Source of the DNA: Polaromonas sp.
Lineage (GTDB): Bacteria; Pseudomonadota; Gammaproteobacteria; Burkholderiales; Burkholderiaceae_C
DNA: 64,000 nt
Assembly (NCBI RefSeq): GCF_029945895.1
Contig: NZ_JAQSDL010000076.1
Coordinates: forward strand, 62,001 to 126,000
Direction: 5' to 3'
Shown: one piece after another, positions 42,420 to 49,559 of the stretch
Layout: every line of letters starts with the position of its first letter
Numbering within the stretch: position 1 is the stretch's first letter
Notes under the pieces: model-generated
The model's input: only the letters and a program-made list of their open reading frames with translations
Databases searched by the model: none
Told to the model about the DNA's origin: nothing
Made by a program: the position numbers and the translations under genes

Positions 42420-42982
42420 AGTTTTATTCCCTTGGCGGCCAAAGCCTTGCTGAGTGCGTGAACGGCCCTCGAGCAATGCGTTTTCACACTGCCCTCGGAG
42501 CAACCCATGGCAGCAGCTGTTTCAGCAACATCCATTTCCTCCCAGTAACGCATCAGAAAGGCTTCTCGTTGACGACCCGGCAGTTCCTTGATCTCTACCT
42601 CGATCTGCCGCAAGATTTGCGCCCGCTCGGTCGCGTCCTGGGCGCTTTCCGTGCCCTCAGAGTTGGTTGAAGCCTCTAAAGTTTCAAGCAGATCGAAATC
42701 GCCGTCATCCCCGGCGGACTCAAAGTCGCTCATGTTCGAAAACAGGGCGTTGCGCGTCTTGCGGCGCCGGAACCAATCCAGCGTGGTGTTCGACAGGATG
42801 CGCTGGAACAGCATGGGCAATTCGGCCGCGGGTTTGTCGCCGTAGTGCTGGGCCAGCTTCATCATGCTGTCCTGAACGATGTCGAGCGCCGCCTCGTCGT
42901 CGCGGACATGGTAGACGCTGCGCTTGAAGGCGCGCTTTTCAACGTTTTTCAGGAAATCGGAGAGTTCTTGTTCAGTTGCCAA
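42416..42982 (-). CDS. RNA polymerase sigma factor, ECF-like
   Basis: 188 residues from TTG 42982 (reads MATEQELSDFLKNVEKRAFK). Sigma region 2 spans about 15-80 (VRDDEAALDIVQDSMMKLAQ), with FRRRKTRNALFSNMSDFES after it. Region 4 spans about 115-170 (LPGRQREAFLMRYWEEMDVA, then a helix-turn-helix in GCSEGSVKTHCSRAVHAL). First of a coupled unit with the DUF3619 and DUF3106 genes. Divergent from ilvI across 299 bp. The TTG start is weakly supported, but no other start preserves the N-terminus. Confidence 0.9.
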   Translation of the reverse strand: MATEQELSDFLKNVEKRAFKRSVYHVRDDEAALDIVQDSMMKLAQHYGDKPAAELPMLFQRILSNTTLDWFRRRKTRNALFSNMSDFESAGDDGDFDLLETLEASTNSEGTESAQDATERAQILRQIEVEIKELPGRQREAFLMRYWEEMDVAETAAAMGCSEGSVKTHCSRAVHALSKALAAKGIKL

Positions 42983-43156
42983 GGGAATGCGTCCCGATTT
43001 GTCCCAGCGTCGTCGTTGTTGTGTTTCCGGGCGAGTTGAAGCGTCCGAAGCTGCAAAATTATCGCATCAAGCATGGTTCCGGCCGGAATTTTTTCCATTC
43101 TCCGCCGGGCACGCGCCGCCGGATGCGATAATGCGAGTTGCAATTCAAACAGCAAA

Positions 43157-43170
43157 CGGGTCATGACCCG
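43157..43170. promoter_or_regulatory. Perfect 14-bp palindrome upstream of ilvI
   Basis: CGGGTCATGACCCG, centred 118 bp before the ilvI ATG in the 299-bp divergent region shared with the sigma-factor gene. Could be an operator for either gene. The rest of the region shows no gene I trust; a GATAAT at 43127 could be a -10 box but lacks a good -35. Confidence 0.45.
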
Positions 43171-43281
43171 GCGGGATATGTTTCCGCCCATGGTTTTGGC
43201 CTCAAGTCTCGACGCTACTCCACAAGAGTGGGCGAAGAGGCACCCAAGGTATTTCGTTAGAGAAATTCACAAAGGTTCATC

Positions 43282-45683: not shown

Positions 45684-46815
<1,132 letters not shown>

Positions 46816-46858
46816 CGGAGCTACCGGGCCTCTTCAGGCCCGGTCAGGTTCAGCGTCA

Positions 46859-46889
46859 AGCCGCGCAGGCCACCTGCGCGGCTTTTTTT
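46859..46889 (+). terminator. Rho-independent terminator after ilvC
   Basis: AGCCGCGCAGG (46859-46869), loop CCA, CCTGCGCGGCT (46873-46883) followed by seven T's. A second hairpin without a T-run (ACCGGGCCT / AGGCCCGGT, 46823-46844) sits just upstream. Confidence 0.9.
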
Positions 46890-46923
46890 ATTGTTGCGCC
46901 CGACCGTTTGGTATCCTCTGGGC

Positions 46924-46998
46924 ATGACTGAATCACTCTCTGCACCGTACCCCGGGCGCACCTCTTTTTCCGAAACGCGGAGCACCTTCCATGCATGA
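46924..46998 (+). CDS. Possible 24-residue upstream ORF overlapping the pssA start
   Basis: ATG 46924 to TGA 46996-46998 encodes MTESLSAPYPGRTSFSETRS plus four residues. It overlaps the pssA start by 8 bp, so its translation could couple to pssA. It has no strong ribosome site and no known relatives to me. It may be chance, or a remnant of a gene once upstream of pssA. Confidence 0.25.
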   Translation: MTESLSAPYPGRTSFSETRSTFHA

Positions 46999-47803
46999 CG
47001 GCCACGACCCTGATATCGAGGCCGCGGAAGCTGTTCCGCGCAAGCGGCGCAAGGGCATTTACATCCTGCCCAATCTGTTCACGCTGGCCGGGCTGTTCGG
47101 CGGTTTTTACGCCATCGTGATGGCCATGAACGGCCGCTTTGACCAGGCGGCGATCGGGGTATTTGCCGCCATGGTGCTTGACAGCCTGGATGGTCGCGTG
47201 GCGCGCATGACCAACACCCAGAGCGCTTTTGGCGAGCAGATGGATTCACTGGCCGACATGGTGTCGTTCGGTGCGGCGCCGGCGCTGATTGCCTATGTAT
47301 GGGCGCTGACGAGCCTGGGCCGCTGGGGCTGGATTGCGGCGTTTGTCTACTGCGCCTGCGCAGCACTGCGGCTGGCCCGGTTCAATGTCAACACGGCGGT
47401 CGTCGACAAACGTTTCTTTCAGGGCCTGCCCTCACCGGCGGCGGCGGCGCTGGTCGCCGGCTTCATCTGGCTGATGACCGAGGCCGGCGTGCGCGGCGAG
47501 GAAGTTCGCTGGCTCATGTTTGCGCTGACCCTGTACTCGGGCCTGACCATGGTTACCAATGTGCCGTTTTACAGTTTCAAGGACGTCAGCCTCAAGCGCA
47601 GCGTTCCGTTTGCCGTGATCGTTCTGATTGCCCTGGGCATTGCCGTGATCAACATCGACCCGCCCACCGTCATGTTTGGCCTGTTCGTCATTTACGGCCT
47701 GTCCGGCTATGTGCTGTATGGCTGGCGCAAGGCCAAGGGTCAGCAGACCAGCGTGATCTCGACCTCGACCGACGAGCCCGATGAGCGCGGCCTGCACAAG
47801 TAG
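46991..47803 (+). CDS. pssA: CDP-diacylglycerol-serine O-phosphatidyltransferase
   Basis: 270 residues from ATG 46991 (MHDGHDPDIEAAEAVPRKRR). A cytoplasmic lead is followed by about eight membrane helices. The CDP-alcohol phosphatidyltransferase motif DG-x2-AR-x8-G-x3-D-x3-D is complete in LDSLDGRVARMTNTQSAFGE and QMDSLADMVSFG. It makes phosphatidylserine, the precursor of phosphatidylethanolamine. psd, often next to pssA in this group, is not here. Placement between ilvC and leuA is the usual Burkholderiales order. Confidence 0.94.
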   Translation: MHDGHDPDIEAAEAVPRKRRKGIYILPNLFTLAGLFGGFYAIVMAMNGRFDQAAIGVFAAMVLDSLDGRVARMTNTQSAFGEQMDSLADMVSFGAAPALIAYVWALTSLGRWGWIAAFVYCACAALRLARFNVNTAVVDKRFFQGLPSPAAAALVAGFIWLMTEAGVRGEEVRWLMFALTLYSGLTMVTNVPFYSFKDVSLKRSVPFAVIVLIALGIAVINIDPPTVMFGLFVIYGLSGYVLYGWRKAKGQQTSVISTSTDEPDERGLHK

Positions 47804-47861
47804 GCGGCGTCCGATTTCCTCCGGCCGGGCCCGGCTCACAATTTGTGGTACATTGAATTCC

Positions 47862-47918
47862 ATGAAACGAATTTCGCTCGCACTATCGCTACTGGACCGA
47901 CACGGGCTCAGGCGATAG
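47862..47918 (+). CDS. leuL: Putative leucine leader peptide of leuA
   Basis: 18 residues, MKRISLALSLLDRHGLRR, from ATG 47862 to TAG 47916-47918. Five of 18 residues are leucine, clustered (L6, L8, L10, L11, L16), two of them from the rare codon CTA in this GC-rich genome. Its last codons lie in a hairpin (CTATCGC 47883-47889 with GCGATAG 47912-47918), and two mutually exclusive hairpins follow before leuA. This is the layout of ribosome-mediated attenuation. There is no evident Shine-Dalgarno site. Confidence 0.6.
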   Translation: MKRISLALSLLDRHGLRR

Positions 47919-47935
47919 CGCACGCGCGCGATTCC

Positions 47936-47988
47936 AAACGGCCCGTATGCAAACGCAGCGGGCCGTTTTGTTTTGGGCTGCGTTTTTT
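47936..47988 (+). promoter_or_regulatory. Putative leuA attenuator: two mutually exclusive hairpins
   Basis: Hairpin A: AAACGGCCCG (47936-47945) with CGGGCCGTTT (47959-47968), followed by TGTTTT. Hairpin B: AAACGCAGC (47951-47959) with GCTGCGTTT (47977-47985), followed by TTT to make a run of six T's. B uses the loop and first right-arm base of A, so both cannot form fully. B is the better terminator. The leuA ATG is 32 bp beyond. Confidence 0.65.
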
Positions 47989-48020
47989 GATTACCAGATC
48001 GACCTCTCAGGAGAACAAGC

Positions 48021-49559
48021 ATGGCAGATAAATTGATCATTTTCGACACCACCTTGCGTGATGGTGAGCAGTCGCCCGGTGCCTCGATGACGCGCGATGA
48101 AAAGCTGCGCATTGCCCGCCAGCTCGAGCGCCTGCGTGTCGATGTGATCGAGGCCGGCTTTGCCGCCAGCTCCAACGGCGACTTCGAGGCGGTGCAGGCG
48201 ATTGCCAATGCCATCAAGGATTCCACCATCTGCTCGCTTTCGCGCGCCAACGACCGGGACATTTCCCGCGCGGCCGAGGCCCTCAAGGGGGCCAACAACG
48301 CACGCATCCACACCTTCATTGCGACCAGTGCCCTGCATATGGAGAAGAAGCTGCGCATGAGCCCGGAGCAGGTGCTGGAGCAGGCCAGGCTCTCGGTACG
48401 TTTTGCGCGCAACCTGGTGGCCGATGTCGAGTTCAGCCCGGAAGACGGCTACCGCAGCGATGTCGACTTCCTGTGCCGCGTCATCGAGGCCGTGATTGCC
48501 GAGGGTGCGACCACGATCAACGTGCCCGACACGGTCGGCTACGCCGTCCCCGAGCTCTATGGCAACTTCATCAAGACACTGCGCGAGCGCGTCCCCAACA
48601 GTGACAAGGCCATCTGGTCGGTGCATTGCCACAACGACCTCGGCATGGCCGTGGCCAATTCTCTGGCGGGTGTGAAGATCGGCGGCGCGCGTCAGGTCGA
48701 GTGCACGATCAACGGCCTGGGCGAGCGCGCCGGCAACTGCTCGCTCGAAGAAATTGTCATGGCCGTGCGCACGCGCAAGGACTATTTCAACCTGGAGATG
48801 AACATCGATCCGGTGCATATCGTGGCGGCCAGCCGCATGGTCAGCCAGACCACCGGGTTTGTGGTGCAGCCCAACAAGGCCGTGGTCGGCGCCAACGCCT
48901 TTGCCCACGCCTCGGGCATCCATCAGGACGGCATGCTGAAGGCGCGCGAGACCTACGAGATCATGCGTGCCGAAGACGTGGGCTGGAGTTCCAACAAGAT
49001 GGTGCTGGGCAAACTCAGCGGGCGCAATGCCTTCAAGCAGCGCCTGCAGGACCTGGGCATCCAGATGGAAAGTGAAGCCGACACCAACGCCGCGTTTGCC
49101 CGGTTCAAGGAACTGGCCGACGGCAAGAGCGAGATTTTCGACGAGGACATCCTGGCGCTGGTCAGCGACGAAAGCGTGACCCACGAGAAGGAGCAATACG
49201 GCTTTGTTTCGTTGTCCCAACACAGCGAAACCGGCGAGCGGCCACAGGCGACGGTGGTTTTCACCGTTGACGGCAGGGAAGTCCGCGGCGAGTCGGATGG
49301 CAATGGCCCGGTGGATGCCTCCCTCAAAGCCATTGAAACCCATGTCAAAAGCGGGGCGGAGATGGTGCTTTATTCCGTAAACGCAATCAGCGGATCCACG
49401 GAGAGCCAGGGGGAAGTCACGGTGCGTCTGCAAAACAGTGGGCGTGTGGTCAACGGTGTCGGCGCGGATCCCGACATCGTGGTCGCTTCTGCCAAGGCCT
49501 ATCTGAGTGCCCTGAGCAAGTTACAAAGTAAAGCTGACCGGGTTGCAGCCCAGGGTTGA
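48021..49559 (+). CDS. leuA: 2-isopropylmalate synthase
   Basis: 512 residues from ATG 48021, preceded by CAGGAGAACAAGC. TIM-barrel catalytic domain with [20 protein letters not shown] and the metal motif [18 protein letters not shown]. The linker has [14 protein letters not shown], and the C-terminal leucine-binding regulatory domain (about 390-512) includes [20 protein letters not shown]. It condenses acetyl-CoA with 2-oxoisovalerate, the committed step to leucine. Sensitive to leucine through the regulatory domain and probably through the leader upstream. Confidence 0.97.

Follow-up and report, generated by a model that had tools for sequence, protein, structure and literature searches.

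The gammaproteobacterial leuL leader uses the codon CUA. The described systems closest to the locus studied here, as presented in excerpts of the cited papers, include the leu operon of E. coli and Salmonella, which has an attenuator with a leuL leader (PMC6123439), and the actinobacterial LEU element, in which the leuA Shine-Dalgarno box is the pairing partner of the Leu codons and a conserved pseudoknot is predicted downstream of the leader (PMC1262725); leuL is leaderless in Streptomyces lividans (PMC8079986). In Campylobacter jejuni a Leu-rich leader, LeuL, precedes leuABCD and contains rare Leu codons including CUA (PMC3847290, PMC11955535), and the trpL attenuator RNA of S. meliloti, rnTrpL, starts with the leader AUG and has been shown to act in trans (PMC7298713). 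No betaproteobacterial leuA attenuator was recognised in the open-access literature searched, covered mostly as titles and the beginnings of abstracts, and the excerpted text of PMC2965389 makes no mention of leuA. Because this coverage was limited and leaves aside the principal comparative study (Vitreschak et al. 2004, FEMS Microbiol Lett), the novelty of the element against published work is likely, not settled.

To describe the locus, we use "the window" for the whole 64,000-nucleotide stretch of Polaromonas sp. DNA that was analysed. The predicted regulated gene is leuA (48021..49559), which encodes 2-isopropylmalate synthase (NCBIfam NF002087 and TIGR00973 above cut-off) and has the Shine-Dalgarno sequence AGGAG at 48009..48013; the next gene upstream in the window is pssA (46991-47803). 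Like leuA and its Shine-Dalgarno sequence, all features of the element given below lie on the + strand. The gap between the two genes holds, in order, promoter-like TTGTGGTACATT, an 18-codon ORF, a stem between Leu codons and stop codon, and a strong hairpin followed by TTTTGTTTT; a second hairpin, running into six T's, overlaps the strong terminator hairpin. The fold of 47862-47992 reaches -56.8 kcal/mol (z -4.22), and none of 200 shuffles was as low. A whole-genome search found the attenuator stretch as a single copy in the window's own genome. Within 46500-49500, no Rfam leader family reached its threshold; the lone hit was Thr_leader, which scored 18 bits (E 4.4) where 55 are required. Visual inspection before ilvB (42850-43281) did not reveal a leader either. 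An earlier note on this sequence proposed ribosome-mediated attenuation of leuA, a proposal supported here by the CTA-enriched conserved leader, compensatory changes in the stems and folding simulations that depend on ribosome position. We consider it highly probable that the region is a ribosome-mediated transcription attenuator of leuA, and we infer that the signal it senses is charged leucyl-tRNA. Judged by comparison of related loci, the conserved leucine attenuator with its predicted leaderless leader appears to be real, as does an additional covarying helix that is unexplained.

The comparison began from a leuA scan in which the best 80 of 587 relatives were kept as named loci, which are therefore close relatives; the closest of these 80 by LeuA is a Polaromonas MAG (L032), at 99% identity. 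An ORF-plus-terminator pattern lies directly before leuA in the window and in 48/80 loci. A covariance model built from 47 of the loci with this pattern gave full-length matches in the window and 70/80 loci (E 2.6e-11 or better), and 24 of these 71 matching rows were outside its training set. The earlier note had suggested comparing leuA upstream regions for conserved Leu codons and covarying stems, and both are present, with compensatory changes in the Leu-codon stem (stem 1:2) as well as in the terminator.

The leader ORF, MKRISLALSLLDRHGLRR (47862..47918; 18 codons plus TAG), is conserved, and it contains the five Leu codons, two of them CTA, that had been read from the sequence before; in order these are CTC, CTA, CTA, CTG and CTC. 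With five Leu in 18 codons ahead of leuA, the locus shows the hallmark of the classical leader-peptide attenuator, a short ORF rich in codons for the end product before its biosynthetic gene. Codon bias distinguishes leaders from genes across the 47 loci, with CTA accounting for 114/221 leader Leu codons versus 5/1737 in the leuA genes, and GGG for 48/52 leader Gly codons versus 166/1772. At least one CTA occurs in 94/94 leaders of a wider set, which consists of 97 matches minus L089, L198 and L077, the last being a short covariance-model match that lies far upstream of leuA and has no recognisable ORF. The typical leader across loci is an ORF of 17-18 residues.

An extended -10 promoter, TTGTGG-TACATT (47843..47854), ends 7 nt before the leader ATG. 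The pattern TGnTAnnnT is present in 49/49 loci and ends 6 nt (30 loci), 7 nt (18) or 8 nt (1) 5' of the ATG, which was set by hand in L048, L070 and L108. It should be noted that the search required TGnTA, so that invariance there is by construction, whereas the spacing, the T-G before and the A and T after are not. Some leaders of the wider, less independent set have a distance of 9-10 nt, a measure biased by the use of -10 spacing in choosing the ATG; the 49-locus count is the independent one. No -35 conservation was seen upstream of the -10 box. A Shine-Dalgarno-like string falls within 25 nt 5' of the leader ATG in only 2/49 loci, and none was found in the window. Pairing with the 16S tail (anti-SD) at -5 kcal/mol or lower occurs in 0/47 leaders, compared with 5/47 shuffles and 43/47 leuA starts. 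Transcription usually starts about 7 nt past a -10 box. Since the ATG is fixed at 6-8 nt, the leader mRNA is predicted to be leaderless, and we infer a transcript starting at or within a few bases of the AUG. The earlier remark that the ORF has no clear ribosome site and might be translated without a leader gains support from this fixed distance and from the missing Shine-Dalgarno sequence.

Within the leader, the Leu codons of region 1 (CTATCGC, 47883..47889) form the 5' arm of stem 1:2, and GCGATAG (47912..47918), which includes the stop codon, forms its 3' arm. The two are paired in the best fold of the window and the pairing is conserved in relatives, as expected from the earlier suggestion that the 3' end of the leader pairs with its own Leu codons. 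Over the 47 loci, 97.9% of cells are paired in the four-pair core and just 61.7% in the inner two-pair helix. RNAalifold on alignment A1 recovered the terminator and not stem 1:2, the basis for which is individual folds together with a structure specified by hand for counting; in this count, further pair types were not above shuffles (248/500).

The terminator as a whole spans 47936-47974. Its 5' arm is region 3, AAACGGCCCGT (47936..47946), which is also the 3' arm of the antiterminator; its 3' arm is region 4, GCGGGCCGTTT (47958..47968), with 98.8% of terminator cells paired; and the U-tract, TTTTGTTTT (47966..47974), has at least 5 T in its 9 nt in 95/96 loci. Four terminator pairs are changed on both sides in some of the 47 loci, and the named structures together have 27 double-change cells versus 9.3 in shuffles, with a covariation score of 0.161 versus 0.106. 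An intrinsic terminator, predicted from sequence, therefore stands between leader ORF and gene as in classical attenuators. In 47700-48100 a simple scanner detected neither a promoter nor a terminator; the likely reasons are the missing -35 box and, for the terminator, a bulged stem with a large outer loop.

This assignment revises part of the earlier architecture, in which two hairpins could not both form and the second, ending in six T's, closed the series. By conservation, the terminator is the first of these hairpins rather than the one that ends in six T's. The six T's are indeed there (47983-47988), and the hairpin before them is the helix B:B' described below; it was rejected as a general terminator on two grounds: of the 54 loci with full B:B' pairing, only 18 have 5 or more T among the 8 bases after arm B', and the hairpin would have a large loop. 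The two hairpins do overlap, as had been noted. Their mutual exclusivity did not hold up, since the shared bases are just 47958-47959 and slightly shortened hairpins could coexist as a pseudoknot.

Attenuation itself thus survives with different hairpin roles, the antiterminator being predicted to form not as the alternative hairpin but between the leader's own ACGGGC and the terminator 5' arm. ACGGGC (region 2, 47902..47907; codons His-Gly-Leu) is a copy of the core of the terminator 3' arm. The ACGGGC:GCCCGT pairing is present in 97.2% of cells and lacks covariation because its columns are nearly invariant. CGGG[CT] is found in 86/94 leaders, counted over the last nine leader codons, the stop and three bases, where dinucleotide shuffles predict 20.1 and synonymous recoding 10.9. 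It occurs in all three reading frames (79, 5 and 2 leaders), the peptide shifting from HGR to PRVR or TGR, which argues that the RNA rather than the peptide is conserved. The energy of the 2:3 duplex was better than shuffles at p<=0.05 in only 9/94 individual loci, because the leader end is G+C-rich.

Switching was shown by folding only, in simulations that place the edge of the ribosome footprint, by assumption, 11 nt beyond the A-site codon. When the ribosome edge lies at leader nt 33-39 and region 4 is absent, the best fold in the window is the antiterminator (-21.6 kcal/mol), in which ACGGGCT pairs with GGCCCGT around an inner hairpin from conserved GCGCACGCGC; in the window the bases of this type follow the leader stop (47919-47928) and are strongly conserved. 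With the ribosome at the stop, the terminator alone remains (-22.3 kcal/mol by itself). In the wider set, the antiterminator forms in 92/94 leaders when the simulated ribosome stalls at the first CTA (58.2 in shuffles) and in 1/94 when it is at the stop codon. When region 4 is present, the terminator of the window wins thermodynamically even if region 2 is free, which calls for a kinetic switch like that of the classical model.

In the mechanism we propose, transcription would begin at the leader AUG or no more than a few bases away from it, and ribosomes would load on leaderless mRNA. When leucine is short, a ribosome would stall at the CUA-rich Leu codons and cover region 1, so that region 2 (ACGGGC), left free, could pair with region 3 (GCCCGU) ahead of the synthesis of region 4; no terminator would form and leuA would be transcribed. 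When leucine is plentiful, the ribosome would reach the stop and cover region 2, and stem 3:4 with its U-tract would end transcription in vivo about 110 nt from the start. If there were no translation, region 2 would be enclosed by stem 1:2 and the terminator would form. Attenuation combined with a predicted leaderless start would mean that ribosome loading must match the pace of RNA polymerase without a ribosome site.

The unexplained helix joins arm B in the terminator loop, AAACGCAGC (47951..47959), to arm B' just 3' of the U-tract, GCTGCGTTT (47977..47985). Seven terminator-loop bases abutting the 3' arm pair at 6/7 or better with a site past the U-tract in 75/96 loci, and fully (7/7) in 54/96; no such pairing was found in 21/96. 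Full pairing arose in 10.3% of trials with the downstream stretches of other loci and in 4/96 with the reversed stretch. Five of the seven positions have at least two Watson-Crick types among the 54 loci, the types having been counted after full matches were chosen. Duplex energy stands out at p<=0.01 in 38/96 loci and at p<=0.05 in 60/96 (15 and 21 of the first 47 loci, respectively). Arm B lies 6 nt from the GCCCG core in 47/54 loci, with none between the helices and 10-26 nt to B', spacing compatible with an H-type pseudoknot in which the terminator would be stem 1 and B:B' possibly stem 2. Because B' is made only after RNA polymerase passes the terminator, it should not decide termination at that point. 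The helix might provide a second point of termination, act as a lock that prevents refolding, affect mRNA stability or pair with released RNA; the classical model has no place for a covarying helix that spans an intrinsic terminator.

In another reading, trans-action would come from the short RNA released at the terminator, or from the leader peptide, in the manner of Sinorhizobium rnTrpL/peTrpL, and arm B in the terminator loop would be the pairing site. The complementarity of B to B' in most loci would suit it, as would the S. meliloti attenuator RNA that starts at its AUG and acts in trans according to the excerpted text of PMC7298713. The C-terminus of the peptide nevertheless changes when the RNA motif changes frame, and the cis site B' is the only target considered. 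We regard this alternative as unlikely, and it would add to attenuation rather than replace it.

Beyond the close relatives, in the window's own family (GTDB-type) 198/299 genomes match the model at E<=1e-4, a count that includes weak matches not individually checked, and about one third of its genomes have no match at this threshold under strict filters. In the order, 60/399 genomes match at E<=0.01, including 11/12 genomes shown of the window's family; outside it there are four genomes of family f10 (E 5e-11 to 5e-6), and the rest are weak. In the class, 19/185 genomes match, two from the window's family and the rest no better than 1.9e-4. A leuA-type gene follows 15/15 checked high-scoring matches of the order search (L112-L124, L126, L127) and 0/32 checked weak matches (L125, L128-L158).

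Other families of the order (L208-L255) have a different Leu-rich leader ORF before leuA in 23/48 loci. Their C-termini consist of LLR and one to five further residues, frequently as GLLLRxAR, and a -10-like hexamer lies 5-10 nt before the ATG in 20/23 of them, so that they may also be leaderless. No obvious U-tract terminator was seen after the L208-L255 leaders, and the stretch past the stop is often C-rich, which could reflect Rho-dependent control.

Whether the leader of the window's family might likewise act on leuA by translation or Rho, not by intrinsic termination, has to be considered. Leu-rich leuA leaders without an obvious U-tract terminator, as in these other families, point in that direction, as does the Streptomyces leuA leader, which lacks a typical terminator in the excerpted description of PMC8079986. 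Against this stands the terminator itself, which is conserved, covaries and retains its T-rich tract in nearly every locus, and we consider such control very improbable here.

The position of the element varies among the 80 loci. In 21/70 matching loci, including that of L077, the match lies far upstream of the query leuA and, by its position, before a pair of leuA genes; loci with a distant leader were missed by the first leader detector, which looked near leuA. An ORF of 579 residues lies between leader and leuA at L101:234-1973, the locus of Polaromonas sp. JS666, and a similar longer leuA-like gene is found in many relatives, which suggests a paralogue inserted into or lost from the inside of the leader-controlled unit. 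The gene after the leader is a leuA relative, 25-28% identical, in L113, L116, L118, L119 and L121. Two leuA-type genes of G044 are each preceded by an element of their own: the window-type leuA, and a separate long-form leuA with a second full copy at L206:264-380. Ten of the 80 loci have no full match. Three lie at contig ends, L044 with a partial match and L051 and L111 with sequence that starts close to the gene, and L057 has masked bases; the other six (L042, L061, L065, L084, L085, L110) lack the element, and in these pssA ends 16-110 nt upstream of leuA, as though the gene had become part of the upstream transcript. An ordinary intrinsic terminator of pssA preceded by a chance ORF, with the leuA promoter downstream, would account for a strong terminator between the two genes and for the empty promoter scan, but it is very improbable, given that the ORF, its CTA codons and the -10 box are all conserved, that the element precedes the first gene of the leuA pair in those 21 loci, and that pssA lies close to leuA in the six loci lacking the element.

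A broader proposal, that leaderless leader peptides control betaproteobacterial leuA in several families, with a second RNA layer, a read-through pseudoknot, in the window's family, is put forward tentatively, and we would sooner doubt it than rely on it. If it is true, the terminator hairpin of read-through transcripts would serve as the first stem of an H-type pseudoknot whose closing helix lies immediately beyond the U-tract, and this would distinguish leuA mRNA from terminated RNA, tuning stability, translation or a second exit point. The attenuator we favour is of interest in its own right as a testable leucine switch for a large environmental family, for which no account of leuA regulation was found in the open-access literature searched.

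Comparison with the known systems, as far as their excerpted descriptions go, shows both shared and distinct features. The C. jejuni LeuL is likewise a Leu-rich leader with rare Leu codons including CUA, and differs in its other lineage, its longer peptide and its prediction from a ribosome binding site in that group. S. meliloti trpL is, like the element described here, a proteobacterial ribosome-dependent attenuator whose RNA starts at the leader AUG, as is predicted here; it differs in serving tryptophan in an alphaproteobacterium and in its demonstrated trans-action. With the actinobacterial LEU element and leuL, our locus shares a leader with a run of Leu before leuA, leaderless in S. lividans, and a pseudoknot predicted downstream (PMC1262725, PMC8079986). 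Its Leu codons, however, have the stop region of their own leader as pairing partner, and the stem to the leuA Shine-Dalgarno box with accompanying pseudoknot was not found; the actinobacterial element has no typical intrinsic terminator, whereas here the terminator is the core and any pseudoknot would be built on it. The gammaproteobacterial leuL attenuator has in common with our locus a leader peptide with Leu codons, alternative RNA structures, an intrinsic terminator and a position before leuA. Unlike leuL, the leader described here is predicted to be leaderless and to carry an antiterminator arm within its own codons; in addition, leuA stands as a separate gene downstream of pssA, and there is the extra arm B'.
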